In this document: one piece after another, positions 13,916 to 60,308 of the stretch
Numbering within the stretch: the first letter of the stretch is position 1
How the letters are laid out: every line of letters begins with the position of its first letter
Source: Straminergon stramineum
Taxonomy: Eukaryota; Streptophyta; Bryopsida; Hypnales; Calliergonaceae
Direction of reading: 5' to 3'
Assembly: GCA_963920665.1 (NCBI GenBank)
Contig: OY987265.1
Location: 563,001-627,000, forward strand
Length of the DNA: 64,000 nt
The notes under the pieces: generated by a model
Seen by the model: only the letters and a program-made list of their open reading frames with translations
Databases searched by the model: none
What the model was told of the DNA's origin: nothing
Program-made: the position numbers and the translations under genes

Positions 13916-13920
13916 GTAGT
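13916..13920. repeat. Target-site half GTAGT, left of element A
   Basis: GTAGT directly precedes TGTC of element A. The 5 bp after A (17305-17309, CCCTC) do not match. The reverse complement, ACTAC, directly precedes element C at 56402-56406, which is in opposite orientation. So the matching half of this duplication lies beside C, not A. Confidence 0.85.
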
Positions 13921-15097
13921 TGTCGCAGCACAGGATAAGTAAATTCCCTATTATGCTCACAAAAATCACTCTAGAACATAACAAAGTGACTCTAAAGATC
14001 GAACCCACGAGATTCTGTGAAGTATTTACTTGATTTGGGCGAGTAAGCTCTCTCACCCTCTAAAACTTCCTTTCCGGTCCTAGATCTAAAACCGGAAACA
14101 AACAACCACCAAGAGGATCAGGACCGGATTACTTCCCATCCGATTCATAAATCCCCCAGTAAACCCAATTCTCCCAATCTCCAGGACCTCAACAATTCCG
14201 GTCCTGGTACTACTCTGAACCAATCCGCTCTGACTGGTTCCCGTATCTTCCCAACACTCTTCCGGTTTAGTTTTGCCTCTGTTGGACCATCAAAGGGTTC
14301 GCCGCTTAGGTTTCTGAGTGGTAGGCCCACCACTCCTTTTGCGGATTATAGTGGTTGAAGACCCACTGTTTTCTCCCTTCCTCTCCTAACTAACTCGAAT
14401 CCGGTTTGATCCCTCACAGCAATCCAGACTACAAACCGGAATGCAGGTCACACAGAGATCCCCCGTACGATCCGTTCTTACTACAACGACCTCAATGCCA
14501 GCTCCTACCCGTGCGAAGCTAGGTGGTTACAAGTGTACTCATCCGTTCCAACAGTAACTAAGATCATTCCGTTTACCAACTACAGTGATGAGACCTCTCA
14601 GAAGGTTGGACACTCAACTGGACTACCCGTCCAGGAGTTCTAGCGCCACTAAGAATACCCTCCCTTTCTGCCTAGCCTAACAGCAGCTATCTCACCCGGA
14701 ACTTCAAAACCCTAGATCTTGCTGAGGCACTAAAATACACTCCCAACACTTACACAACCTGCGTACACACTAAGGATCGGAAACTATCGCACTAAGGGGA
14801 GAAATCTAACCACAACTCTGCCTTACACCTTCCTAACTCCACATCATGCAAACCTGCCAAGCTTGGGAGACACACACAACAAGCGAGCGCATACAAAGGT
14901 ACAACAAGAATTGCAAAAAGAAGACTCCCAGCGTCCCTCGCGGGCGCTGACTATATACATTTCAAAAAGTTACAAATGGGCAGGAAAACTCGCGAAAGTT
15001 CCGCCGCCATCTCGATCAGACTTTCCGGTCCTACCTACTCCCCACTTGGACCGGAACAGTTTCCGTATCCGTTCCTACTCTACCTACCCTGTACATC

Positions 15098-16860
15098 CTA
15101 AGTCCCTATTCGCGATCCGATGGTCGCGCTGTCCGCTCCCGGGTCCATCTGCTCAAAAACCTCGTTTAGGTTCCGACTCCTCTTGATCTCCTGAGGTCGA
15201 GGAACCAGATAGCCTTCTGTGGACGTGGGCGGTGAGTCCAAGTCGATGGCGGTTCCAAGCGTGCCGGCTTGGGTCGATCTCTTGGACTTCGGGGTCGTAT
15301 CCTTCCCCTTGCCTACTGTCACCTCCGGGAACGAATCCGGGAGGGAGATATTCGAGAGTCGGATACTGCGAGAGTAGGTTGCTCCCGACAGTATCCGGGT
15401 ACTCTCCTCTATCCGGTCCGTTGCCTTTCGTGCCTCCTTCATTGCCGCTTCAACCTGCTCGGCAAAGTCGTTGAGGATCCACACCATCCGGGAACCGGAT
15501 AGCTTCTTCTCCTCGTGCACCCGCTCGTCAAACAACTTGGCTTTGGTGAGGGCCGTTCCGGTCTCCCCGAACGTGGCCTTCACTTGCTCCATCATCTGCC
15601 GAGCATCCTCTGCAATAGACTTGGTGGTTGCGAAGTTCTCTTGGTGCACCAGGATCTCCATCTTCATCCGATCCACCTCCTCTTGTAACCGGCGGATCTC
15701 TGCTTCTTGCTTTCGAGACTCGATCGGATCAGAAATACAGGCCGCCACCTTTTCCGGTAGCTCCCGGTTGGGTGCTGCTCCCACCATCCTCCCGATTGCT
15801 ATCAACATCTTCCTTTTCATCTCCCAATCTGCTTGTATGTCGCATAAGGTTTTTACGAGTGATCTGAACAGATCTTCGGGATCAAATTCTTTTGACATCG
15901 TCTTCTCGACCTCCGGCTTCTCCTCTAGGGCCGGGGTGTCGCGAGCGGGCAGCGTCCCCCGCTTGTTGGGAGAGGTCATCTTTTGCCGTTTGATGAGCGG
16001 CAAAGGCGCCTCCTCTTCCTTTGACTCACTGTTCTCCTTGGGATCGGAACCGGATTCCATCTCCTCATCCATTCCCGATTCTCCATATTTCAGGAGAGTT
16101 TCCTGAGCCTTCCACCTCTTCTCCTCTGGTGCGCTCAAGAGCTAGTGCGAATGATAGAGGTGCATGAGATAGGGGCACACCGGAGTGGCCCTACTCTTCC
16201 CCACTCTTCCTACGAGTTGGGTGACCAGCTCGGAAATGATCCGAGCCCAGTCAACTTTCCGGTCTCTTCTCAGAGAGCCAAAAATTGTGTTGGCGAGGGA
16301 GATAGTCACCCTCGTCGGTTTTTCCGGATGAAGGACCGGAACTAAAAATTTCAGCAGCTGGCGCTGTTGCTCATCGATGTAGTCGTCCACCGCGTATCTG
16401 TCTTTCGAGTTGACCGCCCCCTCGAACTTTCTGCGGCAGAACTCATCCTTCTAGCTTGCCATTCCTAGCCCTCCTGCCTGGAAACTATAGACTGCTCTCC
16501 ACACATTTTCCGTCCACAGATGTGGAACAACTCTCAGAGTGTTGTCAAACTCATTGGACAGCTTGCCCAAGAGTTCTTTGACTATGGGTTCTTCTTTGAA
16601 GCCCTAGGATTTATCTACAAACCCTAGGCAACCCATGGAGTTCAAGTCTTCCATAAGTTGGGACTTAGCTGGTTCGGTGGAGGGAACAACCGGAACTACC
16701 TTCTGGAGCTTTACCTCTACTGGGGGTACACTGGAACTGGCCTGTCCACCTCTAGTCCTCCTAAGTTGCGGCATGGACATGGATTGGTGCACTGGGGACC
16801 CTTTCCGATACTCCCTCGCTATCTCTCCTAGCCGCACGCCTCGTTCTTGCTTTCGCTCTC
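15098..16860 (-). pseudogene. TGTC element protein (copy A), coiled-coil protein, broken
   Basis: One frame runs through most of the element. Read in order it has a basic N-terminus (MPQLRRTRGG), a conserved DLNSMGCLGF motif, a globular part with DNTLRVVPHLW, VTISLANTIFGSL and a KVDWARI motif, then GRVGKSRATPVCPYLMHLYH. An acidic linker (DEEMESGSDP) follows, then a long coiled coil with EIRRLQEEVDRMKMEILVHQ, and a Ser/Thr-rich tail ending ATIGSRIGT at the stop at 15098. In copy A the frame is cut by three TAG codons: after CLGFVDKS, in AS-stop-KDEF (Trp in B) and in HSH-stop-LLS (Gln in B). The globular part loosely resembles the putative plant transposon protein domain (Transposase_32), which is an inference. 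No clear start: the frame opens after a TAA upstream, and the first ATG is at MSMPQL. Confidence 0.7.
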
Positions 16861-17029
16861 CGATCTCAACCGGTAATTAAAGCTCGAACGCTCAAGGACC
16901 ACAAGTCTTGCAACGGACACTAGCACAAAAGACTGTCACGGGAAACTAATCGACAGGCACAAAGGCAAACATAGAGCACAAATAGCGCTGGGCAAATGAG
17001 AATGAGAAAGAGTTTGATCTAGGTAGCTC

Positions 17030-17045
17030 CAGTTCTTTTATAGCC
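17030..17045 (-). promoter_or_regulatory. TATA box of element A
   Basis: On the minus strand the sequence is CTATAAAAGAACTGG, about 180 bp upstream of the start of the coding frame. It is conserved in B and in C (56669-56676). In D1 the same site reads TATATAAGG. This is the only good core promoter in the element, and transcription would run inward from this end. Confidence 0.7.
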
Positions 17046-17725
17046 GTTGGACTCCCTGCCACCTCATCCTGACTCATTCCGGATCTGGTTCGTCTAAGGT
17101 ATCCGGTCCATCCCTATCCGGTCAGACATCCGCTCCTATCCGTTCACTCCTTGGAACCTAGATTGAGTAGATCTTTCCACTATCTCATTTTCCGCTTCTT
17201 ATTCAGATCTAGATGGTTCCGTAGCTAATTCCGGATACCTATATGTATTTTCCGGTTAGCTTGACTTGGTAAACCAAAAAAATCTAAAATTGCATGCTAT
17301 GACACCCTCCGTCATTGCAAACTACTCTGAAATTTGCACACGTAGTAATTCCTCACACAATCACTAACTTACCACTCTTTCATTCAACTACACGCACACA
17401 AAACAGTTGTGGAAGAAAGAGGAAGAACAAATGAGAGTGGCGGGGTTAAGTACCCGTCAACTTTCCGACCGTTTCTAAAGCGGACCATTTACCCGTAACG
17501 GGTCCCTATTTTTCTAGGCCGAAAGTCTAGTTTGTAGTCTGTCGCTATCTGGGTTTCTGGATCCGTCTTGGATCCTGTTACAGATTACCTGGAGTATCCT
17601 CTTAGTCTTAATGAGTTGTTTAGGCTAAGAAGGTTCTAATCCTTTTGGCCTATTAGAAATTTGGAAAAAATTCTATATAATTATACACTCTTAAATACTA
17701 ACATGGTGACTTCTAAGATTACGGC

Positions 17726-18118
17726 TCACGACACACTAGATGTTTTTGTAGTTTGGTTTACTTTGGATCCTACACCAACAAATTCTTCCGGTGCTGCGCA
17801 TGAGTCCTCTTGAGTAGAACATGCCATATCCCTCTCATTTGAAAAATTGCTCCTGACCATACGCATGCTACCAACATCTACATTGTCAATGATTGGTCTT
17901 CGCGGGAATGCCCCATTCGATCGAATAAATAGGACTCGAACATCCAACGTCAATTGCGAATAAAGACTCATTCCTATATCATGAACACTTGATGGGCCTT
18001 CATATCCTAAATGGCTCAACATACGGCTAATCTTCTTGCCAAACACTGAATTGCAAGCCTTGCACTTCACCATACGGGTTGATGGGATACCATACCAACC
18101 AGACCAATCCTTGCTCAT
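17726..18118 (-). pseudogene. BED-type zinc-finger fragment, hAT-transposase-like N-terminus
   Basis: The protein opens MSKDWSGWYGIP, then VKCKACNSVFGKKISRMLSH, a CxxC...SRxxxH pattern typical of BED fingers at the N-terminus of hAT-like transposases and related plant genes. The rest (about 80 residues) is Ser-rich with no domain I know. No catalytic or dimerisation region is found in the following sequence, which ends at element A. The rest of the gene may have been lost or moved by the inversion. Confidence 0.5.
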
Positions 18119-18439
18119 AGTGACAAGTCATAAATTTTAATTCCATATATTGGAATCAAATTCAAAATGTGAAGACTTGATGAACAATGTCCAAAATAAT
18201 ATAATAAAAAATGAGTGCACAAAGCCTTGAAAATCAAGGCCCTCTCGTCCACTGAACAATACATTACCAAGCAAGGGACATAAAAATTGCAGCTCCTAGC
18301 CCTTGGAAATCTTAGCGTTCAGTTTTTCAAGAGTGCTCTCAAATGACTTCTTTCCTATAGTTATAGTCTCTGAAATTGGCCCTAACTGTTGGAAACCATT
18401 TTTGAATCCACAGAATACGCAATCCGACGTCAGCTAATT

Positions 18440-18690
18440 CCATGGCGGACGACGCGCTCACTTTGAACGGCCGGTCGGGCACACGGGGGGTTGAACACAC
18501 GGGGGTCAGGCAAACGGACAATGCGGACACGCGGATGGAGTGACGTGGGGACAGGCGGATGGGAAATGTGGATGGATGGACAGGAGGGAGGTCGGATGGG
18601 TAGTTGGTCGGTCAAGTGGACGAGCAGATAGGCGATTTAGGCGGACGCGCCAACTAGTCAAGTGGACGGGTGAACGGGCGGGGTAAATTG
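18440..18690. repeat. GC-rich minisatellite-like patch
   Basis: Short irregular units with GGACA, GGCGGATGG and GGGGTCAGG stand out from the AT-rich surroundings. Similar patches occur at 37810-38110, 39890-40800, 45480-45880 and 52195-52535. The ORFs across it on the minus strand are compositional artefacts. Confidence 0.6.
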
Positions 18691-18891
18691 CATTCAATGC
18701 TTCAAGTGAGGTGGGAAAAAATATAGATTTATGGATGGAATTAGGAGATTTCAGAAAATTATGGTTTCATCAAAGGGTCTTATAATTTTAAATTTCTAGA
18801 TGAGCATAAAAAAAACATACTTCACAAAAAGGTGTCCTTCATAAATCATAATAGCATGAATTTAAAAGAAAACAAAACAAATGATTAATTC

Positions 18892-18894
<3 letters not shown>

Positions 18895-18934
<40 letters not shown>
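18895..18934. repeat. (GATA)10 microsatellite
   Basis: Ten perfect GATA units followed by a TATA-rich tail. Confidence 0.97.
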
Positions 18935-19100
18935 TGTATATATATTGATATTTGGATATATTGAGAACTTCAAAACAAATCAAAATTCATTATGAGTACA
19001 ATGAATTACTAGTAGTACTCAACCCTTATAACATTCAAGCCACACTCGGTATACTTCTATACTATTAAACATAATAGAATAAGGAAAGCCTCTCTTACAT

Positions 19101-19913
19101 TTAAGAACCACTACTCTCTCTTAAATCATGAGATGGCCCCTCTTTAGCCAAAAGTCTTGCACTCATTCGTCGAGTATTTGGCCTAGCACTGTAGACAACA
19201 CCTCTTTTGGATCTAACCTCCATGTCAACCGTTGAAAACTGTTGTTTGGTTTCTGGAGAGTAGTCATCGTCATCCTCTCTCTTCCGTTTTGAGGTTTGTT
19301 TTGGAGATAAATCTACTTCTTCAACCTTCAAGGCCCTCAACGTAGCATCCACTCGATCTATGAACACATTGACCTATTCGTCATCAGCTTTGATGGGTAA
19401 CCCTATTGGTCGAAAATCGGCCAATAAAAAACCCCTCCATTGAGTTATGATGTCACCTATCCTCTTATCAAATGCTTTAGCTACCTCCACAAATGAATGC
19501 CCTGTAGTTGTTTCCCCATCTATTTCAACAAGAGCATGAGCTTTGGCAGCTTCTTCCAACTTTGACAAGAAAAGGGCCCTACCAATCAAAGTGTGATTAT
19601 AAGCCCTGTATTGCTCATTGAACTCTTAAGCATGCTCCACCTCTATCCAAGTGTTGTTTGGCCCTTTTTGCACTTCTTTGTCAGGAAACCGAAAAACTTC
19701 TTATGTTGCACACTCCAATGGCCCCCCATGTTGCGACAAAACAATTCACGAGCCTCGCTATCTTCAATACCCCGGGCCTGCAACTCCACCTCTCTATTGA
19801 GAGTCATCCACATGAAAGGATCCATTGGCTCTCCAGACTCCTCATACAATCCATGTCAATATTCAATTGAATCCCATATGAGAGGTCGCCTCCAATGCAA
19901 GAAATTTTGGAAC
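19101..19913 (-). pseudogene. RING-finger host gene, 3' part, downstream of the CACTA insertion
   Basis: Minus-strand blocks follow one another in order. First is REVELQARGIEDSEARELF with WSVQHKKFFGFL (19849-19643). Then, after a one-base shift, comes FNEQYRAYNHTLIGRALF (from about 19620), running on through FVEVAKAFDKRIGDIITQW. An in-frame TAG (about 19374) leads into a basic, acidic and Ser-rich tail with KRKREDDDDYSPE, ending at 19101. The upstream part of the same gene is at 35006-37496; the 15-kb CACTA element separates them. I infer that the two parts belong together from strand, order and the AAG duplication; I do not recognise the function of this part. Confidence 0.6.
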
Positions 19914-19916
19914 AAG
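19914..19916. repeat. CACTA target-site duplication AAG, left
   Basis: AAG at 19914-19916 is matched by AAG at 35003-35005, directly outside both CACTA ends. A 3-bp duplication is the hallmark of the superfamily. Confidence 0.93.
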
Positions 19917-19937
19917 CACTACAAGAGAAAGGGGTGT
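19917..19937 (+). repeat. CACTA left terminal inverted repeat
   Basis: CACTACAAGAGAAAGGGGT. It pairs with 34982-35002; one mismatch over the first 19 bp (A for G at position 12). Confidence 0.95.
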
Positions 19938-22900
19938 TTTTAGATGACATTCTAGTATAGAAGTACTAGAATTCCTTACACATTGCTGGAAGATCACGTT
20001 CCATATGGTAAATTAGTAAACTGAAGCCACCAAAGGCTTATTGGTCGTGGTTGGTATAGAAAGGACATTCTCAACGATCACAGTTTCTGGCTTCTTCCTT
20101 CCACTGTAGCTTATTTACTTATTTCCAAGTGTTTTCAGTGTGCAACGAAGTTCAAGAAGTTTTTTTTAATGGAAAATCACTATACGTGGGCAGGTGGCAA
20201 TGTGAGTCCACTGTTATTGGCAGATGCGGGAACTTTATAACATTCGTTACCTCGTCTTCACACTGCAAAATAGCTCTTTTAAAGTGCATCACACTTTAAA
20301 AAATTACTTGACGTTATTTTCATCGTCCAGCTGTACTTCTGTAGCAGTGGTGGATTGGCTGCCTGAAAACAACATAAATCAAAGGGCCAATGAAGACTCT
20401 AAAAGAAATTATATATTATTTTACGATTCACCATCTTCATTCAAGTTCAGTTCAGTTCAAGGGAAAGCAGTTATGGTCACTTTCTTTTTTTCTTTTCTCT
20501 ATGAGTTCGGGAAATTGCATTCGCATATGACAGTCACTTAAAATGTCATTCGATTTCTTCCATGGCACTTCTTCATTCCTGTCAGTTTATTAAGTTCATA
20601 GAATGACTTGCATGATAGGATCTCAGTAGTTCGCACTTCACAGATAATATTGTTAACATTGAATTATAATCTACTATTTCCTGCAAGATGATAAAACTTA
20701 ATTGGTAATCTTATTGTACATGAAGAATACTGAAGTGCCCTGTACGCTAAAAAAAATTCACTTCTTAGGACTCATGTTCGTAAACATTTCAACAGGAATC
20801 GAAGCTCTTGCCTATGCTACCACCTGCCATTACTCGAACTTCTGTCTTTCCTTCCTCCACGAATCACAGAGGCAATGCTGATCAATCAATGGCCAGCAGA
20901 CATTCCTGAATATAGTGGTTGTTCACATGGCAATGACAAGTACTACGACAAGATCATTCTGAAAACTTTCTTTCGATTACTACTGTGATCCTATTGTTGC
21001 TTTAATCCACTCATTCATTTTCCTTGTCTACTAAATTGTTCATGCTTTTTGTCATAAAATGATCATATGTCCACTTCAAGTCATCCATTTCCCTCGAAAT
21101 TGTCGACTCCGCACTGACGCTTTCTTCAATTGCTTTGCACCTTCTATTCAAGCACCGTGGATTCCATACCTGCTACGACATGCAAACACTTTACGTATGT
21201 CACACCTTCACTTCCCAGTGACAGGATTTCGTGCTGTACATAGACATTGGCTGCAAAAACTATAGAGAACTTCCATACCTCTTGGTCCTACCATTACACT
21301 TGCTTCAAGGAAATTGACGGTTACTAGGATACATGTTTTAATTTTGATTACCTGTTACTCTGGGGAATTCCTGCATGGTTTGTTCGCACTTAGTCCAACC
21401 AACTCCAATGAACAGTGGGCGTTGACAACGGTTGCAGTGCAATTTTCTTCACGGCGATTGTTACTGTCACCTTCACTAACGACCAGCTCCATGTGGCTTT
21501 CGGAAGTGGATGGAAGATTTTTGCCCAGTACCACCATCTCCGCAAGGGGTGATGACTGAAATTCACATCGAGGTCACACTTCATTCTGGTGCATATGGCC
21601 TCAACCGACACTTGCACATTTGCTTCGGAGGGGGACAATGTCGGCATCAGTCACTGTTGACTATCCTCGGAATCTTGCACTTCACAGAAGCTACTGTATT
21701 TCTGTTCGTTCCCTTCATAGAGTATGTCACTACAATGACGACACTGCTAAACACCTTGTGGAAACATCAGGAACACTTATCATAATGGATTACATGGTAC
21801 CTGAAAAACAAACTGTAACATCCTCTGGTAGAAGCCAAGAAAAGGTTAATTCACATGTCGTCTATGTAATCACAAACGCTTCTTTCATTTACCACATTGT
21901 CCTAAAACATTTTTCGACATAGTTTCATTCCTTCGATCACGTTCCACTACGTCACTGAATTTGCCATTGAATTTTCTATTCACTACAGAAGACAATATGA
22001 TAGGGACTGAGTGCATACCCCCCCGCATTTGCGATGTTCCACTTTTCGTAGATTGTTTCTACATTCATAATGAGTACTACCGTAGTACTCTTTGCACTTG
22101 TCGTGCGTTTCACTCATACAAAATTATAACATGTTTGCATTCATGTGCAATTTCTTTTGAGCATCTCATTTTCAGTGATGTACCTAGAATTCCAGTGAAT
22201 GAACTGGGAAAACTGTGACGAACCTCTTTAAGCCATACCTGGACAAAGTAGGAGCCAAATTCGTACTTGCAGAAGGAGATCAATGAGCAGCTTGCGCAGA
22301 CCCCCATTACTAGTCCTCATGTAGTGTAAATTGTAATGGCCAGCCACCTGCAATCCTCTCTAACACATAGATATTCCGCGAACAGTTATTACAGGTATGA
22401 CATTAGAAAATGCACAGGTACATGTCAGTCCTAACTGCATGCCCCAGTTTCATTGTTCATTATCTGATCAGCTTCGTCCACTACAAGTGTTGCTAGAATG
22501 GCAATGCTCTTTTTCTGCACTCTCCTTCCTGGGATGCATAATCCCAAGACGAGCATTCCTTTAATTTATGAAAACTGCATTCCCCCACATGCATGTAAAT
22601 TGGTTTCCTTCTGTAGACTGTACTTAGGATTTGAACTTTCTGAAGTCATGTAATTCAAATGACTTGAAGAGCTTGCTACGTAGGACTCGTTTTTCCTTTA
22701 CATTACTACTGCAAGTATCATCAGAAGTACTGAACTTAAGACTTTGACAAGTACTATAACAAACTCCACATCAATAGTGATGTTCCCTACTTTTGCAGAG
22801 AATGCCCTCGACTATACGACAATTTTGTTACATGCACAACCGTAAACTTTCCCACGGACCAGAAAGTCTGAGCACCAGAACCTACCTAGCATAACAACAA

Positions 22901-35002: not shown

Positions 35003-35005
35003 AAG

Positions 35006-40660: not shown

Positions 40661-40802
40661 AAAAAACACCATCCCTCCCACGCTCCTCTCCATCCGCCCG
40701 TCTATAGTCGCCGTCCGCATTGTCTGTCCGCCAGTCCGGAATCCGTTCGTAGTCGCCGTCTACTAGTCCAGAATTCGTCCGCATTTTCCGTCTGCGTCCG
40801 CA

Positions 40803-45880: not shown

Positions 45881-46073
45881 GGCTTGTCCGCAATCACTTT
45901 TGCCTTGCCTCTTGTGTTTTGCAAGTGTGGAGTGGAGAGCTTGGTGGTTTATCCTCCATTGGCTCCTCTCCTCAAGAAGGTGGAAGTCTTATTTGGGGGC
46001 CCCATTATTGCTATTTTTTGTAGCGAATTTCTAAGTTTTAATTACAAATTTTTGGTATTAAAAATTTATCACG

Positions 46074-47134: not shown

Positions 47135-50100
47135 TGTCGCAGCACAGGATAAGTAAATTCCCTATTATGCTCACAAAAATCACTCTAAAGCATAACGAAG
47201 TGACTCTAAAGATCGAATCCATGAGATTCTATGAAGTATTTACTTGATTTGGGCGAGTAAGCTCTCTCTCATCCTCTAAAACTTCCTTTCCGGTCCTAGA
47301 TCTAAAACCAGAAACAACCAACCACCAAGAAGATCAAGACCGGATTACTTCCTATCCGATTCTTTAATCCTCCGGTTAATCCAATTCTCTTAATCTCCAA
47401 GACCTAAACAATTCCGGTCCTAGTACTACTCTGAACCAATCCGCTCCGACTGGTTCTCGTATCTACTCAACACTCTTCCGGTTTAATTTTGCCTCTGTTG
47501 GACCATCAGAGGGTTCGCCGCTTAGGTTTTTGAGTGGTAGGCCCACCACTCCTTCTGCAGATTATAGTGGTTGAAGACCCATTATTCTCTCCCTTCCTCT
47601 CCTAACTAACTTGAATCTGGTTTGATCCCTCACAACACTCCCGACATCAATCCGGAATGCAGGTCACACAAAAATCCCCCGTACGATCCGCTCTTACTAC
47701 AACGACCTCAATGCCAACTCCTACTCGTGCGAAGCTAGGTGGTTACAAGTGTACTCATCCGTTCAAACAGTAACTAGGATCATTCTTTTTATCAACTAAG
47801 GTGGTAAGACCTCTTCAGAAGATCGGACACTCAATCGGACTCCCCATCCAGGAGTTCTAGTGCGTCTAAAGATACCCTCCCTATCCGCCTAGCCTAACAG
47901 CGGCTATCTCACCCGGAACTTCAAAACCCTAGATCTTGCTGAGGCACTGAAATATACTCCCAACACTTACACAACCTGCACATACACTAAGGATCGAAAA
48001 CTATTGCACTAAGGGGAGAAATCTAATCACAACTTTGCCTTACGCCTTCCTAACTCTTCATCATGCAAACCTGCCAAGCTTGGGAGACACACACAACAAC
48101 AAAGCGCATACAAAGGTACAGCAGAAATTGCAAAAAGAAGACTCTCAACGTCCCTTGCGGGCGCTAACTATATACATTTCAAAAAGTTACAAATGGGCGG
48201 GAAAACCCGCGAAAGTTCCACCGCCATCTCGGTCGGATTTTCCGGTCCTACCTACTCCCAACTGGATTGGAACAGGTTCCGTATCCGTTCCTACTCTACC
48301 TACCCTGTACATCCTAAGCCTCTATTCACGATCCGATGGTCGCGCTGTCCGCTCCCGAGTCCATCTGCTCGAAAACATCGTTTAGATTCTGACTCCTCTC
48401 TACTTCCTGAGGTCGAGGAACCGGATTGCCTTCTGTGGACGCGGGCGGTGAGTCCAAGTCAATGGCGGTTCCAAGCGTGCCGGCCTGGGTCGTTCTTTTG
48501 GACTTGGGGGTTGTATCCTTCCCCTCTCCTTCTGTCACCTCCGAGAACAAATCCAGGAGAGAGATATCCGAGAGTCAAATACAGCGAGAGCAGGTTGCTC
48601 CCGACAATATCCGGGTACTCTCCTCCATCCGGTCCGTTGCCTTCCATGCCTCCTTCATTGCCGCTTCTACCTACTCGACAAAGTCGTTGAGAATCCTCAC
48701 CATCCGGGACCCGGATAGCTTCTTCTCCTCGTACACCCGCTTATGAAACAACTTTGCTTTGGTGAGGGCCGTTCCGGTCTCCCCAAACGTGGCCTTCACT
48801 TGCTCCATCATCTGCCAAGCATCCTCTGCAATAGACTTGGTGGCTGCGAAGTTCTCCTTGTGCACCAAGATCTCCGTCTTCATCCGATCCACCTCCTCTT
48901 GTAACCGACGGATCTCTGCTTCCTGCTTCTGAGCCTCGACTGGATCAGAGATACAACCCGCCACCTTTTTCGGTAGCTCTTTGTCGGGTGCTGCTCCCAC
49001 CATCCTCCCGATTGCTACCAAGATCTTCCTCTTCAACTCCCAATCCGTTCGTATGTCGCATAAGGTTTTTACAAGTGCTTTGAACGGATCCTCGGGATCC
49101 AATTCTTCTGACTTTGTCTTCTCGACCTCCGGCTTCTCCTCTGGGGCCGGGGTGTTGCGAGCGGGCGGCGTCCCCTGCTTGTTGGGAGAGGTCGTCTTCT
49201 GCCGTTTGATGACCGGCAGTGGCGCCTCCTCTTCCTTTGACTCACTGTTCTCCTCGGGATCGGAACCGGATTCCATCTCCTCATCCGTTTCCGATTCTCC
49301 ATATCTTAGGAGAGTTTCCTGAGCCTTCCACCTCTTCTCCTCTGATGCGCTTAGGAGCTGGTGAGAATGATAGAGGTGCATGAGATAGGGACACACCAGA
49401 GTGGCCCTACTCTTCCCCACTCTTCCTACGAGTTGGGTGACCAGCTCGGAAATGATCCGAGCCCAGTCAACTTTCTGGTCTCCTCTCAGAGCGCCGAAAA
49501 TTGTGTTGGCGAGGGAAATAGTCACCCTCGTCGGTTTTTCCAGATAAAGGACCAGAACTAAGAACTTCAGCAGTCGGTGCTGCCGCTCATCGATGCAGTC
49601 ATCCACCATGTATCTGTCTTTCGGGTTGACCGCCCCCTCGAACTTTCTGCGGCAGAACTCATCCTTCCAGCTTGCCATTCCTAGCCCTCCTGCCCGGAAA
49701 CTATAGACTGCTCTCCACACATTTTCCATCCACAGATGTGGAATAGCTCTCAGAGTGTTGTCAAAGTCATTGGACAGCTTGTCCAAGAGTTCTTTGACTA
49801 TGGACTCTTCTTTGAAGCCCTAGGGTTTCTCCACAAACCCTAGGCAACCCATGGAGTTTAAATCTTCCATGAGTTGGGATTTGGCTGGTTCAGTGGAGGG
49901 AACAACCGGAACTACCTTTCGGAGCTTCACCTCCGCTGGTGGTATATTGGCCTGTCCGCCTCTACTCCTCCTAAGTTGCGGTATGGACACGGGTGAGTGT
50001 GCTCGGGACCCTTTCCGATACTCCTTCACTATCTCTCCTAGCCACACGTCTCGTTCTCGCTTTCGCTCCCCGATCTCAACCGGTAATTAAAGCTCGAACG

Positions 50101-50514
50101 CTCAAGGACCACAAGTCTCGCAACGGACACTGGCACAAAAGACTGTCACAGGAAACTAAACGACAGGCGCAGATGCAAACATAGAACACAAATAGCGCTG
50201 GGCAAACGAAAATGAGAAAGAGTCTGATCTAGGTAGCTCTAGCTCTTTTATAGCCGTTGGACTCCCTGCCACCTCATCTTGACTCGTTCCTGATCCGGTT
50301 CGTCTAAGTTATCCGGTCCATCCCTGTTCGGTCAGACATTCGCTCCTATCCGTTCACTCCCTGGAAACTGGATTGAGTAGATCTCTCCACCATCTCATTT
50401 TCCGCTTCATATTCAGATCTAAAAGGTTCCTTAGCTAATTTTGGATACATATCTTTATTTTCCGGTTAGCTTCACTAGGTAAACCAAAAAAATCGAAAAT
50501 TGCACATTGTGACA
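47135..50514 (+). mobile_element. TGTC element B, 3,380 bp
   Basis: Full length, same ends as A (TGTCGCAGCACAGG and ...TGACA), same orientation. It splits the kinase-like pseudogene. Its right end (CATTGTGACA) has drifted from the inverted repeat. The TATA box (minus strand, near 50245) is conserved. Coding frame is described separately. Confidence 0.9.
48326..50050 (-). pseudogene. TGTC element protein (copy B), nearly continuous
   Basis: Best-preserved copy: 371 codons run without a stop from 49786 to 48671. In order: MPQL-type basic start region, DLNSMGCLGF, TAG after FVEKP, then DNTLRAIPHLWMENVWRAVY, VTISLANTIFGALRGDQKVDW, GRVGKSRATLVCPYLMHLYH, an acidic linker (DEEMESGSDPEENSES), IRRLQEEVDRMKTEILVHKE coiled coil and a TAG in VE-stop-VEAAM. 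The tail has two TGA codons replacing CGA of the other copies. Similarity to copies A, C and D is spread over the whole frame and includes many conservative changes, as expected of a sequence once selected as protein. Confidence 0.75.
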
Positions 50515-50943
50515 CGGGACATGACTACTGTAGCTACCGAACCAATGAAATCCTTGTATACGTTCACATCTACAAGTGACATGAACGATGCTTTAACAAG
50601 GAGGTGGTGGGTGGATCCAAGCATTGCATATTTGCATAGAAGAGATGCAAATGTGGAAATCATTCCACATTTATCACATGCATCAGAGGAATATGCAATT
50701 GGTAAAATAGCTCAAAAGATCAATAAACAATGCATGTCAGAGAACTACAATAGATTGCAACGGGAAATAAATGCAATGGCCATGTTTAGCCACCACCAAT
50801 TGGGAATTGTGTTTCACCAATACTTGGACTGGCTTTGTCAAAGAGGTGATGGTTATCGGGGTGGTTTGGCCCACATCATCAATCAGTTCATTGGCCAATT
50901 CAATTGGCCTATGCTGGATGAACACTTCCGACATTCATATTAG
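50515..50943 (+). pseudogene. Protein-kinase-like gene, 3' part, after element B
   Basis: Continues the kinase C-lobe: RDMTTVATEPMKSLYTF, RRWWVDPSIAYLH (activation-segment and APE-like region; WVDP where many of these kinases have WVAP), then HASEEYAIGKIAQKI and a C-terminal helix-rich part ending HFRHSY. If B and one 5-bp duplication are taken out, CNW joins to MTTVATEPMKSLY in frame, with the spacing expected after the metal-binding motif. The 147-codon frame is open, but as a separate gene it would lack the catalytic loop. Confidence 0.7.
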
Positions 50944-52194
50944 TAATATAGTGCAAGAGTGCACTATATAGAGTTTTATAAATATTTGATAAATGTAGAA
51001 CTTTGGATTTATGCATGTAGATTGCTTAGTATATATGCACCCCTAGAGTATGTCAATTTATGGGAAATTAGACATACATTTTGAATTTTTCAATGTATTT
51101 GAATTGTTTTTGAATGAATATCAATTTTTGACAAATCAAAAATATCTCTTGTTTGAGTGCAAAGTGCAATATTTCTTCTTGAATGTAGATGGCTATTTAG
51201 TTGACAAGCTTGTATGACAAATTGCATGATGTATGATGTGTGTGTGCAAAGTTTCTGAGCCCGTTCAATTTAATTTGGAATAAGTCTTGGAAGAAGACCA
51301 TTTCATTTATGATATGGAATTACTTGGACCTTCTTAGAAGTTGTGTTCCAACGATTTCATTCATATTTGAATTATCATGATGACTCGTTAAAGAAATTGT
51401 GGTTTTATTGTTTTAGTGTGTATACTTATAATGTATGAACTATGAAGAGACATAATTAGTAAATTCATTACAAATTTACAATGAAGGATTTTAAAGTAAT
51501 TTACTGAAATGATTTGTTTGAAAAAGGAAGTTGTATCTTATTCACCTGAAATCTTTGGAAGCAAACATGAAGCATGTGACCGTATTTTTGTTGGCATGTA
51601 ATTTTGAGATTAAATTGTCATATGTTTTTTTTTTTAAAAGAACTTTCCAGTAGTAAATGATTTTATCAATTCAAACAAAATTCTAACATGATTCATGAAG
51701 TGAAATCGAAAAACAAAGAGAGTGATTCAATTTTAGTGTTTTTTCAAAAAGGTTTAGGACTTTACGGCACTTGGATTTTTAGAAGCCTTTGGGTTCCCAA
51801 TTTAGACCTTCAATTTTTTTTCATTGCATTGTTTTCATAAAATGAACAAAGGAAAATAGGAAATTAAGCTCTAAATGCATGGTTCACAAAATGTATGTGT
51901 GTCCAATATTTTCCTAAACCCTAAACCGTAATAAATTTGTTATTTTGGGTACCGGTTCTTTGTATATTTATTCGAAAAATCCTTTGAAATTCTATTGTAG
52001 CACTTGAAAATGAATTACGAAAATAATTGGAAATGACTTTTCTCTTTATAAATTTGTACAATGCAATTTTCCTTTTTCTTCATTGCTAAGGACTCTTAGA
52101 AATGAGCATGAAATGTACCAAATTTCAAAAACAAAATCACATGAGAAGTTCTTTTAGAATAAAAAATTAAAGATAGAGACTAAATTCGGGGAGG
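50944..52194. other. AT-rich DNA, no gene recognised
   Basis: No frame above 60 codons. A degenerate telomere-like CCTAAACCCTAAACC occurs at about 51913. Confidence 0.65.
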
Positions 52195-52535
52195 CTTAAG
52201 CGAATGGGCGGACGGGATGGCGGATGGGCTCTAAAGACCATGGATGGCGGCGCGAACGGGGTCGGGGACAAGCGGATGAGATGGCGGATGGGCTTCAGAG
52301 ACCGCAGATGGGTTGGCGGACGGGATGGCAGATGGGCTCTAAAGACCACGGACGGTGGCGCGAATGGGGTCGGGGACAAGCGGACGAGATGGCGGACGGG
52401 CTTCAGAGACCGCACACGGGTTGGCGGATGGGATGGCAGATGGACTCCAGAGACCGCAGACGAGTTGGCAGACGAGCTCCAGAAATCGCAGACGGCGGTG
52501 CGAATGGAGTCCCGGATGGGCGGATGGGGTAAAAG
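52195..52535. repeat. Tandem repeat, 108-bp unit, about three copies
   Basis: The string GGGCTCTAAAGACC (or its variants) recurs at 52226, 52334 and 52442, a period of exactly 108 bp. Each unit has a related sub-block 64 bp in (GGGCTTCAGAGACC), so it grew from a shorter repeat. Units are rich in GATGGCGGA. All three plus-strand frames and one minus-strand frame stay open because 108 is divisible by three. Confidence 0.9.
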
Positions 52536-52650
52536 AATTTAGCCCAGGGTAAAAAATGGATTTTGAGAATGTCATAGGACGTCTAAGGGGGTCGAGTTCG
52601 TGGATGTCCGAAGTTCGGACGCTGGCAGCTACGTCAAGACGACGTGTCAA

Positions 52651-53236
52651 CCCTGGGGGAAACAAATCAAAATTCTACAACAAGGGATATCACTCGCGTG
52701 GCCAAGGAGGGCAAAGCTCATCCAACAGCTAGAGGAGACTCACATTGATTCAAACATTGTGGACACATAGAGACTGATGCAGCAGAGTAACCGCGAGGCA
52801 GTCATCTCCATCGCGGCCCTTGCCCCCTTGCCCCATGAGCCCACAACACCTTCGAGGGATTCTAAATTCAACAGGGTCCCATTTTTGGGGAGGTCAAGCT
52901 GGCACTCCCTAGAGTCAAGTCGGATCCAACTGAACCTTTGGGTGTGCCTGCTCCACCCCCTCAAAGTGGGACCCCGAACATATTTTGACGCATTTTACAC
53001 CAACTGGGGAAACAAATCAAATCAAAATTTTACAACAAGGGAAATCGCTCGCACGGCCAAAGAGGACAAAGCTCGTCTAGCAGTCGGAGGAGACCCACAT
53101 TGATTCAAACATCGTGGACATATAGAGACAAGTGTAGCGGGGTGACCACGAGGTAGTCACCTTGATCGCAGCCTCTACCTCTGTGACCCATGAGCAACAG
53201 CACCTTCGAGGGATTCCGAATTCAATAGGGTTTGGA
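52651..53236. repeat. Direct duplication, about 350-bp spacing
   Basis: The block beginning GGGGAAACAAATCAAA at about 52656 recurs at about 53006, followed in both by ACAACAAGGGA, GACAAAGCTC or GGCAAAGCTC, ATTGATTCAAACAT and CACCTTCGAGGGATTC. The second copy ends near 53233. The copies are about 80-85% alike by eye. Not recognised as coding. Confidence 0.75.
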
Positions 53237-55311
53237 GAAATTTTTGAATTCTAGAACCAAGGCATTAGTGTCAATTTCTTGCTGAGGGAATTGGCATGAA
53301 TTTGAACCTTCTGGTGTCCGCCGAGCTTTTGTGGCCGCAACGTTGGTGTCCCTTCCACCTCCTTCACGACATCTTTTGTGTGGCCTCGTGTTGTTCGCTT
53401 CCCAAGCGCACTCTCCTCCCTCTACTCTCATGTCATGGTGGATGCCACATGAGAATTTGGCAACAATGCACACACTCTTTCATATTTGAGATTCGGAATT
53501 TCAAAGGGGGAAGAGGTCAGCCGTGCCCATGAACTGGTGCTCGGCGATGTGGAGGAGGATGGAGAGGCTCGATCCGGGGGGAGGATGAGGTGGCAGGGAC
53601 CCTCAAATTAGAAGGAGGAGGTATGGGCGGGCGGCCCATGCCATGGCCGACTTCGGCACACTTGAGCCAGGTAGGGGAGGAACTGGAGCTGGCGGGGAGG
53701 GTCGTACAATCCGCTCCCCTCTTTGGAGGTTCCCTTCTCTCCAGCACCACCCTCACTTGATTCACCAAGTGTAGGCACTTTTTGGAATCTCGACCTCTCC
53801 GAGAATGTGATTGAGGAAATGCGGCCATGAAAAACTGTTGCCATGCACGCGGTGGTCGTGACTACGTAGAGACCCACAGGGCTTTACCTAGGCTTCGCTG
53901 TGCTTAGACTAGAAAATGGACGACATTTTTAATTTGCGTATCTCATGCATGTTGAAGGTCTATTATGTTTCTATCTTCATAAATTATACAAAGTAATGCT
54001 AACTGTTGATTTTAAGTCGTTAATTCCATAGCCCTTGTACCTTAATTTTCTATATGCTGAATTTCACAAACGAAGAGCATGATTCGTAACCGTAAAAATG
54101 GCTCGCTACTTCTCTACAGTTAGAGCCTTTGTTTCTTCCCAAAAGACTTCCTCTCGTGACGGAGAGTAATCACTTGTTTCTCTTAGGAGATCCATGGTTC
54201 GCCCCAAATTGTGTTTTAAGGGTAATTTAGTACCCCTATGGGATCTCATGTTTTCCTATTTGTTATATTTCACAAACACATTGGACACATTGATTTTTGG
54301 AATCATATACTTGAATTGGACAAGAAAAGGACGAAGAATGTCACTTGGAACTGGAATAATGAAATAGCAAAAATGGAATTAATACTCACAATGGCGCCGG
54401 AATTGTCTTTTTCTTGCTTTTGGTTGAAACTTGACTCCTCTAGCATGGGCTAACTTCCACCAACATTTTTTGGTGCGGGGCCATCCTCTCCACTACTTCC
54501 TCCACCAGCAAAGCGAAGGGACTTCTTTAGCTCTCCAGGTGTAGACTGAGAAGTCCTAGACACTACCTTCTTCTTGTTCATCCTGGACTTCTTTAGAGCC
54601 TTGGAGGAGGAGAAAAAAAAATTACAACACCTCTTTCTGCTCCTCATGTCAATGGGCACAAGATCAGCATTTGGGGATTCTCCAAGCATAAGGTGAAAGA
54701 ACTCTACATGAAACCTCCCTCTCCTCTCCACAACCTATGTAATGGCCACCAATTAAAATGGACATGGCGAAGTTGAGACACAAAACATATGCACTTATTT
54801 AAGCACTTCAGCCTAGGCGTACTACATGGATTCGATAAATTCCTTCGTGCTCGTCAGGCAGCCAAGCATATTAACTCCCCTTCATGGCAGAACTTTCAAT
54901 GTGCCGCTTAGAGGCAATTAAATAGGTCGAGGATTTCTAGATCAGCTAACACAATTATTTTTGCTCTTCTTCCAATGCATGGGTGACGAATCTAGTGCCT
55001 CTACTTAATGAATGGCAATAATTAAATGATGAGGCCGTTTTAGTTTTCTTGAGGTCACGGACATGCAATAAAGGACTACTTGGACGATGGTGTATAATGG
55101 GCAGCTACAGAGCTACCTCTAGCGGTGGATTTTATCACTCAAATCCGATGATTAATTATCATACCTACCCTAAGTAACGTTTTGCTCACCCAATTTGAAA
55201 TTCTAAAATGAAAGGGTACTACATAAGGCCATTTGAATTTGGATGCCTTCACTGATTCCAAAGATCCATTGCCTCTCAATGTCCCTCAGCTCCTAGCTGT
55301 GTTCCACGAGG
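53237..55311. other. No gene recognised
   Basis: A minus-strand frame of 93 codons at 54450-54731 (MERRGRFHVEFFHLML..., Lys- and Ser-rich) is the best candidate, but it has no recognisable domain. Overlapping frames on both strands at 53222-53877 are in GC-rich sequence and look accidental. The upstream end of the transposase gene at 55312 probably lies in this stretch. Confidence 0.45.
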
Positions 55312-56406
55312 ATGGCTTGTATTAGAGTGAATGGTCAAGATGCTCTGCTTGTATTTCCCGTAGACGATGGACAATTAGCCAAGGTCATGAGTCACCTCCT
55401 ATATGTACACTTCAAATTTGTAGAGTCCTCCATCTACATTGAAGAGGAAAAGTTGTCCCAGTTAGGTGAATTAGTGCAATCCATTTCGGTTGTCAAGAGT
55501 CTAGATGGAGATGGCCATTGTTGGTACCTAGCCCCAGGGAACTACAGGGCTTATGGACTTCCACTTTCCATGCTAGGGGTTTCAAGAGAAATTTGGAGTT
55601 GACAATCGGAGAACTCCACAATCGACATGCCATACATTGCACGCACGATGTCACCTAGTCCGCCTTGTGAGGGCTTCCTGCTGCTCCGTGAAAGTACAAT
55701 TCTACGGTCAGTGAAGGTAGAGAAACTAGAATCCATTATAGATTTGTCGAGTGAATCGGAAGATGAATCACCTAACATGATGCTTGAAAAGCAACAATGT
55801 CCAATCCCTTTGGAGACGAGTGAAAAGACCTACATCCACTCAGAACAGATCACCCCCTCCAATAGTCCAGCCCCATCTCTATTGTCACGTCTTCCACTGC
55901 ACCCATCATCTACTCAACAAGTCAACATAATGGAATGCTTGAAGAGATTGGCGACTGTGCGGCGTTCTCAGAATGAACTATCCAATATGGATGTCAATGC
56001 CGTGAAGCACCACCATGTGCAGTACTTGCCAACTCATTTCAACGGGGATGTCATCTTCGAATTGCCCTTGTGTCGATCTACATCCTCCTCCTTGGCGGCC
56101 AAGAACCTTGAGGGAATGGATAGGCGATACGACGGACACCTGTGGTGTAAGCTCATGACCACGAACATTTACAACTCCGACAACCTCAAGTTCCGTGAGT
56201 CATACTGCGCCAGACACCTTGCTTGTCAAAATCTTGATTGTGATTATGTAAAAAAGGCTTCCAAAATGAATGAAACAGAGTGGACCGGTTACATGATCTG
56301 TCCTTTTGCTAAAGGGGGGACTCCTCCCAAAGATTGTACTCTAGTATGCAAAGTTTGCAAGAGCCCCCCTGTGTGCTTGAATGCATGTGATGTTAGAATA
56401 TACTAC
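55312..56406 (+). pseudogene. Mutator-like transposase, N-terminal part (split gene, part 1)
   Basis: One frame from 55312 with a single TGA at 55600-55602, then open to the element. The first 96 codons have no known domain. A Ser-rich acidic region follows (DLSSESEDESPN), and then a cysteine-rich block: RYDGHLWCKL, CARHLACQNLDCDYVKKA, NETEWTGYMICPF, LVCKVCKSPPVCLNACDVRIYY. This order (CxNxxC, NETEW, CKVCKxPP, C...RIYY) precedes the MTRA...H..H motif in the same transposase type; those next residues are found at 13920 on the minus strand. Reading stops at the insertion of element C, after which only eight element-derived residues are added. Confidence 0.82.
56402..56406. repeat. Target-site half ACTAC, left of element C
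   Basis: ACTAC directly before element C; its partner (GTAGT, the reverse complement) is beside element A at 13916-13920. The 5 bp after C (59790-59794, GACAC) do not match. Confidence 0.85.
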
Positions 56407-56665
56407 TGTCACAGCGTGCAATTTTAGATTTTTTTGGTTTACCAAGTCAAGCTAACCGGAAAATACATATAGGTATCCGGAATTAGCTACGGAACCATCT
56501 AGATCTGAATAAGAAGCGGAAAATGAGATAGTGGAAAGATCTACTCAATCCAGGTTCCAAGGAGTGAACGGATAGGAGCGGATGTTTGACTGGATAGGGA
56601 TGGACCGGATACCTTAGACGAACCGGATCCGGAATGAGTCAGGATGAGGTGGCAGGGAGTCCAAC

Positions 56666-56680
56666 GGCTATAAAAGAACT
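56666..56680 (+). promoter_or_regulatory. TATA box of element C
   Basis: GGCTATAAAAGAACTGG, 262 bp inside the element end, reading toward the coding frame. Same place in A and B. In an LTR reading, this would make the first about 290 bp U3 and everything after it R-U5. Confidence 0.7.
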
Positions 56681-56939
56681 GGAGCTACCTAGATCAAACT
56701 CTTTCTCATTCTCATTTGCCCCGCGCTGTTTGTGCTCTATGTTTGCCTTTGTGCCTGTCGATTAGTTTCCCGTGATAGACTTTTGTGCTAGTGTCCGTTG
56801 CGAGACTTGTGGTCCTTGAGCGTTCAAGCTTTAATTACCGGTTGAGATCGAAGAGCGAAAGCGAGAACGAGGCGTGCGGCTAGGAGAGATAGCGAGGGAG
56901 TATCGGAAAGGGTCCCTAGCGCACCAATCCGTGTCCATG

Positions 56940-58613
56940 CCGCAGCTTAGGAGGACTAGAGGCGAATAGGCCAGTTCCAGTGTACCCCTAGTAGAGGTAA
57001 AGCTCCAGAAGGTAGTTCCGGTTGTTCCCTCCACCGAACCAGCTAAGTCCCAACTCATGGAAGACTTGAACTCCATGGGTTGCCTAGGGTTTGTAGATAA
57101 ACCCTAGGGCTTCAAAGAACAGTCCATAGTCAAAGAACTCTTGGGCAAGCTGTCCAATGAGTTTGACAACACTCCGCGAGCCATTCCACATCTGTGGATG
57201 GAAGACATGTGGAGAACCGCCTATAGTTTCCGCGTAGGAGGGCTAGGAATGGCAAGCCGGAAGGATGAGTTCTGCCATAGGAAGTTCGGGGGAGCGGTCA
57301 ACCCGAAAGACGGATACGCGGTGGACGACTGCATCGATGAGCGGCAACGCCAGCTGCTGAAATTTTTAGTTCCGGTCCTTCATCCGGAAAAACCAACGAG
57401 GGTGACTATCTCCCTCGCCAACACAATTTTTGGCTCTCTGAGAAGAGATCGGAAAGTTGACTAGGCTCGGATCATTTCCGAGCTGGTCACCCAACTCGTA
57501 GGAAGAGTGGGGAAGAGTAGGGCCACTCCGGTGTGCCCCTATCTCATGCACCTCTATCATTCACACTAGCTTCTGAGCGCACCAGAGGAGAAGAGGTGGA
57601 AGGCTCAAGAAACTCTCCTGAAATACGGAGAATCGGAAACGGATGAGGAGATGGAATCCGGTTCCGATCCCGAGGAGAACAATGAGTCAGAGGAAGAGGA
57701 GACGCCAATGCCGGTCATCAAACGGTAGAAGATGACCTCTCCCAACAAGCGGGGGAAGCCGCCCGCTCGCGACACCCCGGCCCCAAAGGAGAAGCCGGAG
57801 GTCGAGAAGACGGTGTCAGAAGAATTTGATCCCGAAGATCCATTCAGATCACTCATAAAAACCTTATGCGACATACGAGCGGATTGGGAGATGAAAAGGA
57901 AGATGCTGATAGCAATCAAGAGGATGGTGGGAGTAGCACCCGACCAGGAGCTACCGGAAAAGGTGGCGGCCTATATCTCTGATCCGGTCGAGGCTCGGAA
58001 GCAGGAAGCAGAGATCCGCCGGTTACAAGAGGAGGTGGATCGGATGAAGACGGAGATCCTGGTGCACCAAGAGAACTTCGCAGCCACCAAATCGATTGTA
58101 GAGGATGCTCAGCAGATGATGGAGTAAGTGAAGGCCACGTTCGGGGAGACCGAAACGGCCCTCACCAAAGCCAAGTTGATTGATGAGTGGGTGCACGAGG
58201 AGAAGGAGCTATCCGGTTCCCGGATGGTGCGGATCCTCAACGACTTTGCCGAGCAGGTTGAAGCGGCAATGAAGGAGGCACGAAAGGCAGCGGACCGGAT
58301 GGAGGAGAGTACCCGGATACTGCCGGAAGCAACCTACTCTCGCAGTATCCGACTCTCGAATATCTCCCTCCCGGATTCGTTCCCGGAGGTGACAGCAGGC
58401 GAGGGGAAGGATACGACCCCCAAGTCCAAGAGAACGACCCAAGCCGGCACGCTTGGAATCGCCATCGACTTGGACTCACCGTCCACGTCCACAGAAGGCT
58501 ATCTGGTTCCTCGACCTCAGGAGATCAAGAGGAGTCGGAACCTAAACGAGGTTTTTGAGCAGATGGACCCGGGAGCGGACAGCACGACCATCGGATCGCG
58601 AATAGGGACTTAG
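56940..58613 (+). pseudogene. TGTC element protein (copy C), broken
   Basis: Same order of motifs as in A and B: MPQLRRTRG, DLNSMGCLGF, DNTPRAIPHLWMEDMWRTAY, ISLANTIFGSLRRDRKVD, MHLYHSH, acidic linker, EIRRLQEEVDRMKTEILVHQ, and a tail ending ATIGSRIGT-like at 58613. Stops: TAG in the RGE-stop-ASS region, TAG after FVDKP, TAG in VD-stop-ARI (Trp in A), TAG in HSH-stop-LLS, TAG in KR-stop-KMTS and TAA in MME-stop-VKATF. Every one can be derived from Trp or Gln codons by a single C-to-T or G-to-A change, except the first, which I did not trace. Confidence 0.72.
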
Positions 58614-59789
58614 GATGTACAGGGTAGGTAGAGTAGGAACGGATACGGAAACTGTTCCGGTCCAGTGGGGAGTAGGTAGGACCGGAAAGTCTAACCGAGA
58701 TGGCGGCGGAACTTTCGCGAGTTTTCCTACCCATTTGTAACTTTTTGAAATATATATAGTTAGCGCCCGCGAGGGACGTTGGGAGTCTTCTTTTTGCAAT
58801 TCTTGTTGTACCTTTGTATGCGCTCTCTTGTTGTGTGTGTCTCCCAAGCTTGGCAGGTTTGCATGATGTGGAATTAGGAAGGTGTAAGGCAGAGTTGTGG
58901 TTAGATTTCTCCCCTTAGTGCGATAGTTTCCGATCCTTAGTGTGTGCGCAGGTTGTGTAAGTGTTGGGAGTGTATTTTAGTGCCTCAGCAAGATCTAGGG
59001 TTTTGAAGTTCCGAGTGAGATAGCCGCTGTTAGGCTAGGCGGAAAGGGAGGGTATCCTTAGTCGCGCTAGAACTCCTGGACGGGTAGTCTGGTTGAGTGT
59101 CCAACCTTCTGAGAGGTCTCATCACCGTAGTTGGTAAACGGAATGATCTTAGTTACTGTTGGAAGGGACGAGTACACTTGTAACCACCTAGCTTCGCACG
59201 GATAGGAGCTGGCATTGAGGTCGTTGTAGTAAGAACGGATCGTACGGGGGATCTCTGTGTGACCTGCATTCCGGATTGTAGTCCGGATTGCTGTGAGGGA
59301 TCAAACTGGATTCGAGTTAGTTAGGAGAGGAAGGGAGAAAACAATGGGTCTTCAACCACTATAATCCGCAAAAGGAGTGGTGGGCCTACCACTTAGAAAC
59401 CTAAGCGGCGAACCCTCTGATGGTTCAACAGAGGCAAAACTAAACCGGAAGAGTGTTGGGAAGATACGAGAACCAGTCGGAGCGGATTGGTTCAGAGTAG
59501 TACCAGGACCGGAATTGTTGAGGTCCTGGAGATTGGGAGAATTGGGTTTACTGGGGGATTTATGAATCGGATGGGAAGTAATCCGGTCCTGATCCTCTTG
59601 GTGGTTGTTTGTTTCCGGTTTTAGATCTAGGACCGAAAAGGAAGTTTTAGAGGGTGAGAGCACTTACTCGCCCAAATCAAGTAAATACTTCACAGAATCT
59701 CGTGGGTTCGATCTTTAGAGTCACTTTGTTATGCTCTAGAGTGATTTTTGTGAGCATAATAGGGAATTTACTTATCCTGTGCTGTGACA

Positions 59790-60308
59790 GACACGAATGA
59801 GCGCTTGGAACCCTTTTCGATTCTACCTCACTCTCTCCTAACCGCACGTCTTGTTCCTTACTTTCTCTCTCCGATCTCAACTGGAAATCCAAACTATAAC
59901 ACTTAAACACCACAACCCTCGCAGAAGACACTAATACAAGACTAACACGGAATGCGAACTAACAGGCACAAATAACAAGTTTAGAGCAAGGAGAACATTG
60001 AGAACGAAAAATGCAAAAGAGGTTCAACTGAGCAACCTAGCCCTTATATAGTTGTTGGCCCTCCTGCCACCTCATCATGGCCTATTCCGAATCCAATTTC
60101 TATATGATATCCGGTCCATCCCATATCCAGTCAGACATCTGCTCCTATCCATTCACTCCCTAGGACCGGATTGAGCAAATCCCTTGACTATCTCATTTTC
60201 CTTCCTTATTTATGCTCTCAATGGTTCCTTAGCTAAATCCGGATATCTATCTCTAGTTTCCGGTTAGTTTTACTAGGTAAACCAAAAAAATGACAGTTTT
60301 ATGTCGCC
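59790..60308 (+). mobile_element. Element D1, inverted end fragment of a TGTC element
   Basis: About 520 bp in A orientation: from inside the coding start region (corresponding to ...AATCCGTGTC in C, read in reverse) to the element end near 60308 (ends ATGTCGCCACA). TATA-like TATATAAGG lies on the minus strand near 60040. It directly abuts element C at one side and D2 in opposite orientation at the other. About 50 bp of the element at the D1/D2 join is missing. Confidence 0.75.

Follow-up and report, generated by a model that had tools for sequence, protein, structure and literature searches.

The window, by which we mean the whole 64,000-nt stretch of DNA analysed, contains two oppositely oriented copies of an LTR-like element with TGTC ends (A and C), each adjoining one half of a single transposase gene (T). 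This arrangement is probably the result of a true inversion by ectopic recombination between two opposite parent copies, P1 and X, a likelihood that we give as a judgement and not as a computed figure. The original prediction was that an inversion between opposite elements had moved apart the two sides of one insertion, and both the split target duplication and the homologues of the split gene support it strongly. The features concerned are the following.

13921-17304, minus strand: element A, 3384 nt, LTR-like, with TGTC...GACA ends
56407-59789, plus strand: element C, a 3383-nt copy with TGTC...GACA ends, opposite to A
55312-56406, plus strand: T-left, the N-terminal part of a MULE-like transposase gene (pseudogene), ending ...CDVRIYY
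10953-13915, minus strand: T-right, the rest of T, starting VYCDNEK..., with the DDE-like region and the C-terminal part
13916-13920, unstranded: GTAGT, left of A, one copy of the 5-bp target duplication of P1
56402-56406, unstranded: ACTAC, left of C, the other copy of the target duplication of P1
17305-17309, unstranded: CCCTC, the right flank of A (it reads GAGGG in the orientation of the element), the unmatched 5' flank of X
59790-59794, unstranded: GACAC, right of C, the 3' flank of X, inside a D-type element
17305-56406, unstranded: minimum extent of the inferred inverted segment, 39,102 nt

Two homologous copies in opposite orientation, A and C, are thus found at both breakpoints. In a self-comparison of the window they aligned, inverted, with 95.39% identity over 3384 columns with 1 gap. 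The aligned positions that differ number 156, one being the gap and 135 being transitions, and they are spread over the whole length at a mean spacing of 22 bases. The 3.4-kb A-type unit carries a gene for a protein of ~560 residues. The motif TGTCRCAGC was present five times in the window vs 0.66 expected, four times at a 3' end (A, C and two further elements, B and D2) and once at a 5' end, that of C.

Examination of the flanks confirmed that neither A nor C has a 5-bp duplication of its own, as A lies between GTAGT on the left and CCCTC on the right and C between ACTAC and GACAC. As had been pointed out, the left flanks of the two elements, GTAGT for A and ACTAC for C, are reverse complements of each other. 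An inversion predicts two pairs of exchanged target duplications; the ACTAC/GTAGT pair matches, whereas the second pair (17305-17309 vs 59790-59794) reads GAGGG vs GACAC and is mismatched, also as originally described. The chance level of one given 5-mer is ~1 per 1,024 positions, and the combined count of ACTAC and GTAGT over the 64,000 bases is 137. Perfect duplications of their own are present around two unrelated elements.

8944-10936, strand not given: E1, flanked by CCTAT/CCTAT
42203-44213, strand not given: E2, flanked by GGGCA/GGGCA, inside the inverted segment

The frame evidence for T is independent of the 5-mer match. Homologues were gathered with a joined query composed of 161 residues before C and 344 minus-strand residues from 13915, which, out of 3556 candidates, identified 215 proteins at E <= 0.001. 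To guard against a bias of this query toward joined matches, the two halves were then aligned separately to the best 120 of these proteins. Among the best 120 of 215, the left half was matched in 117, the right half in 120 and both in 117, with the three others matching the right half only, at E 1e-3. The frame ending CDVRIYY at 56406 (plus) had been proposed to continue in phase as VYCDNEKMTRAAIHFGDH... from 13915 (minus), and the two are indeed contiguous and in phase in 117 of the 120 listed homologues. The number of residues between the projected halves was 0 in 54, -1 in 62 and +1 in 1 of these 117, and it was 0 in all of the 14 top-scoring homologues of the best 120 of 215. In the -1 cases (62/117), the absent residue falls within the first ten after the joint. 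An alignment of 23 relatives places the joint inside the conserved C-x-A-R-I-Y-Y-V...T-R-A-C-I-H-L-G-x-H-x-H-P and has the same one-residue length variation right after it; we read the shortfall as a probable natural length difference in a loop. Cases of RIYY without VYCDNEK-like residues next were looked for in the best 120 of 215 homologues, and none was found that speaks against the joint. In the 117 homologues with both halves, the halves meet at the joint, and 56406 (plus) and 13915 (minus) therefore most likely lay side by side in a single MULE-like transposase gene, T, before one insertion cut it. This split frame is the strongest evidence obtained here.

The protein P0001 was the closest relative of both halves among the best 120 of 215 (66% identity for the left and 77% for the right), and the identities of the two halves covary over 63 homologues (Spearman 0.57). 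In tblastn, residues 1-368 of P0001 matched 55312-56415 and residues 365-723 matched 13918-12842. The proteins P0001, P0002 and P0003 and translations of the contig L001 together placed T at 55312-56406 (plus) and 13915-10953 (minus), with matches extending a few residues into the elements and, for L001, as far as 14104. The continuity across the joint therefore stands, but its earlier description as a run of motifs was too narrow, with T nearly complete over the two halves. L001, which is filed in a cyanobacterial bin, was the only one of 23 pattern matches upheld in the genome contig search for T. In viral contigs, none was upheld among 230 and 37 pattern matches for relatives of T and of the element protein, and neither the viral nor the genome contig searches yielded a copy of this locus. 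T has the DDE transposase fold of the Mutator/IS256 kind. Unlike MULE (Mutator-like) transposases, however, it showed no Pfam family above the cut-off in its window halves or in five relatives, the sole signal being PF00872 in L001 (E 0.037, below the cut-off). Terminal inverted repeats with a 9-11-bp duplication were sought by comparing 50515-55320 with 1-10960, which gave 47 loose candidates with no null model behind them and none convincing, the best matching at 14/20 bases.

A third copy of the element, B, provides a control for this analysis.

47135-50514, minus strand: element B, flanked by TGGAA/CGGGA and plainly inserted in a kinase-like gene
46062-47134, plus strand: part of the kinase-like gene before B, by homologue match
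50521-50943, plus strand: part of the kinase-like gene after B, by homologue match

B is 90.4% identical to A in the self-comparison. Its flanks TGGAA/CGGGA agree at 3/5 bases and are read as a decayed duplication. The kinase-like gene has 28 homologues, with the left flank matched in 27, the right in 25 and both in 25, and in 25/25 two-flank homologues the flanks of B rejoin exactly, spaced by the one codon that B splits. B is, judging from these alignments, a simple insertion with no inversion. Because its flanks rejoin in line, the method separates a plain insertion from a split one.

On the basis of these features, the sequence of events can be reconstructed as follows. A TGTC element, P1, would have inserted into the MULE-type transposase gene T and duplicated ACTAC, as the flanks and the frame show, and a second copy, X, would have lain ~40 kb from P1 in opposite orientation. 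Ectopic homologous recombination between P1 and X would then have turned over the intervening segment, leaving A and C with exchanged outer halves and T split between 56.4 kb (plus) and 13.9 kb (minus). A would thus be composed of the 3' part of P1 and the 5' part of X, and C of the 5' part of P1 and the 3' part of X. If the crossover lay k nt inside the element (k 0-3383), 39,102 + 2k nt were turned over; by this arithmetic, the original estimate of 39-42 kb is corrected to 39.1-45.9 kb. Points on the other side are the GAGGG/GACAC mismatch, the lack of convincing T termini and the use of a joined query to gather the homologues, although the halves were measured apart afterwards. A test for mosaicism, in which B and the D pieces were the only outgroups and the private changes of A and C were followed from one end of the element to the other, showed no change point (site classes of 150, 88 and 33 informative sites; permutation p 0.65, 0.84 and 0.78); with so few copies the test is underpowered, and its result does not count against the inversion. 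P1 and X may simply have been of equal age.

The inverted segment includes the frames of a CACTA-type element (24214-27877), E2, B and the interrupted kinase-like gene. The CACTA-type element matched Transposase_21 at 26516-27877 with E 3.8e-66, with DUF4218 and DUF4216 below it. An AAACCCT repeat is located at 38277-38313 and, like the types of transposon present, points to a plant. The spacing of A and B (33,214) is close to that of E1 and E2 (about 33,260-33,280). A segmental duplication behind these equal spacings was rejected because the intervening stretches show no match in the self-comparison and the target duplications of E1 and E2 are both perfect and different from each other.

The second breakpoint lies in a region of diverged D-type pieces (59801-64000), which are 73-76% identical to A in the self-comparison.

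59790-60295, minus strand: D1b, the ~0.5-kb 5' region of a diverged D-type element, flipped vs D1a
60301-62115, plus strand: D1a, D-type coding region and beyond, taken as the rest of the element of D1b
62116-64000, minus strand: D2, a further D-type element whose 3' end abuts D1a and which runs out of the window

A rearrangement in the D region at the second flank pair had been suspected, and the 5' piece of D1 does lie flipped beside C, with the break at the right end of C. The inner end of D1b is exactly the right insertion point of C, its outer end is uncertain by 15-20 nt, and D1a starts at, or <= ~50 nt past, the start codon. D1b and D1a would belong to one D element in which the 0.5 kb at the 5' end has been flipped, the break being the insertion point of X. 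Compared with C in 50-nt blocks, D1b ranges from 67 to 90% identity. As none of these blocks comes close to the 95% of A-type copies, there is no visible sign that its outer part was exchanged with such a copy. Candidates for a decayed partner of GACAC (GTGTC) near D1a are GTTTT (60296-60300, 3/5) and ATGTC (60301-60305, 4/5), neither of which is decisive. GAGGG also stands at the left of D2 (62111-62115, where the match with the 5' flank of A can be lengthened to CGGAGGG), but these two were rejected as partner duplications because their element-orientation readings are GAGGG and CCCTC. In the simplest account, the 5' region of D1 would have received X in the orientation opposite to its own, and the block formed by this region and X would then have inverted, before the large inversion. 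Such a further local rearrangement, whose mechanism we infer, would explain the mismatch of the second duplication, and if the local flip is right, GAGGG would be the target duplication of D1 itself. A broader reading, which we consider improbable, is that two inversions, the ~40-kb one and another of a few kb with breakpoints at element ends, both involved the same element, that its ends are rearrangement-active beyond homology and that its units are mobile with their own conserved protein gene, unlike ordinary solo LTRs.

A segment between inverted repeats can be assembled either way when no read spans a whole repeat, and, as originally cautioned, a true inversion and a misoriented segment yield identical assembled sequence. 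The real order may therefore be T-left, P1, T-right, with the ~39-kb segment between the inverted 3.4-kb repeats misoriented. The longest exact tracts common to A and C, of 156, 134 and 101 nt, are compatible with such an error, but the 156 differences along the whole length and the absence of any N base in the window argue against it. Because A and C differ at so many positions, accurate reads of more than a few hundred bases would resolve them, and one difference per ~22 bases favors correct assembly, given accurate long reads. An assembly error is in our judgement unlikely, with an appreciable chance left to it.

Two further explanations were considered. The halves of T could derive from two different copies of the gene that separate insertions interrupted at one and the same position, without any inversion, and the large size of the T family (215 matches) would allow this; however, it needs insertions at the same base of two copies together with opposite complementary losses, and both halves share the same closest relative, P0001 (best 120 of 215), which makes a two-copy origin extremely improbable. 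An inversion by break-and-join or aberrant transposition via the element ends, with no homologous recombination inside the elements, would fit the mismatched second flank pair and the flipped D1 piece, which spans from the very end of C to about the end of the D element. It is very improbable in our view, as the P1 duplication was perfectly kept across the event and homologous exchange would leave two full-length, near-identical copies such as A and C. Ectopic recombination between P1 and X is the reading that we prefer.

If real, the rearrangement adds one more transposon-bounded inversion, which is an already known kind with an established mechanism; if not, the split marks a specific assembly error. 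The ancestral gene order can be read from one sequence here, as the split duplication and the split gene give the prior orientation. A locus in the uninverted order would have a single element between T-left and T-right, with both halves pointing the same way, or would lack the element and read AATATACTACGTATATTG.

Solo LTRs of plant LTR retrotransposons have TG...CA ends with short inverted terminal bases, a 5-bp duplication and full-length single copies. The TGTC elements resemble them in their TGTC...GACA ends, their 5-bp duplication (ACTAC, from the split insertion P1) and their single full-length copies, but differ in that the 3.4-kb unit carries the gene for the ~560-residue protein. A literature search on reading frames within plant LTRs gave no paper with every term sought. 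The self-comparison revealed no copy of the family in the window with two LTRs, an internal region, a primer-binding site and a polypurine tract, D2 being the one that leaves the window. Although A and B point the same way, B is a plain insertion. The idea that A is the 3' LTR of a complete retrotransposon whose polypurine tract would be GACGGAGGG was rejected because the self-comparison shows only B as a second copy in the segment and B is a simple insertion; remnants of a retroelement may nevertheless exist at 17305-22250.

The closest known parallel to the preferred inversion is 2z3 of Drosophila buzzatii, made by the transposon Galileo. There, opposite copies lie at both breakpoints and the target duplications are split between the breakpoints as reverse complements; the signs given for an inversion by ectopic recombination are copies in opposite orientation, an exchange of target duplications and chimerism of the copies (PMC2775673). 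In Galileo 2z3 both duplications are exchanged and both copies are reported to be chimeric, whereas for A and C one pair matches and no change point is seen with the few copies at hand. The uninverted arrangement of 2z3 was also sequenced, whereas the A/C locus is known from its present order alone, and A and C are LTR-like with a 5-bp duplication compared to the 7-bp duplication of Galileo (PMC2775673). Nevertheless, like the Galileo copies described there, A and C stand opposite to each other at the breakpoints, with a target duplication split between them as reverse complements (PMC2775673).

Two further LTR-like elements, unrelated to the TGTC elements A, B and C, were identified in the window, each with TG...TA ends and a perfect 5-bp duplication:
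8944-10936, E1
42203-44213, E2
E1 and E2 are 92% identical, and E1 sits immediately beyond the end of T-right, the right-hand part of the split MULE-like transposase gene. The spacing of E1 and E2 (starts at 8944 and 42203; 33.26-33.28 kb) is close to that of A and B (starts at 13921 and 47135; 33.21 kb), differing by about 70 bp at most. All four elements appear to be independent insertions, and the near-equal spacings are taken as coincidence. The left flank of D2, a diverged relative of the TGTC elements, carries GAGGG at 62111-62115, the same 5-mer as the 5′ flank of A in element orientation, and the match extends to CGGAGGG in both. As a partner of the A flank, however, this site was ruled out by its wrong orientation.

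Other features of the window comprise:
36463-37410, minus strand, open frame
41322-41774, plus strand, open frame
40201-40679, tandem repeat (224-nt unit, about 2 copies, 97% matches)
46062-47134 and 50521-50943, the two parts of a kinase-like gene split by B
The two frames look related by eye (T-C-K-K-Y-x-K-M ... V-D-W), and neither matched a Pfam family above cut-off. Two relatives of the kinase-like gene matched Pkinase with E-values of 1.7e-5 and 4.6e-6, both below the family cut-off. P0211, a relative of this gene, is labelled as coming from a Bacilli bacterium, and a eukaryote-like transposon contig holding a relative of the transposase gene (L001:1-4101, CADCWO010000080.1) is assigned to Synechococcales isolate AVDCRST_MAG81; both names probably reflect contamination.

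A gene broken by stops and encoding a protein roughly 560 residues long was found whole or in part in all five TGTC/D elements of the window:
15107-16774, minus strand, in A
48329-49984, minus strand, in B
56937-58604, plus strand, in C
60304-61902, plus strand, in D1a
63309-63998, minus strand, in D2
The gene copy in C has its start codon at 56937, and a TATA-like CTATAAAAG occurs at 56668. The protein has 88 homologues (E ≤ 0.001) and matched no Pfam family above cut-off. An LTR-like unit enclosing a whole gene seems unusual.
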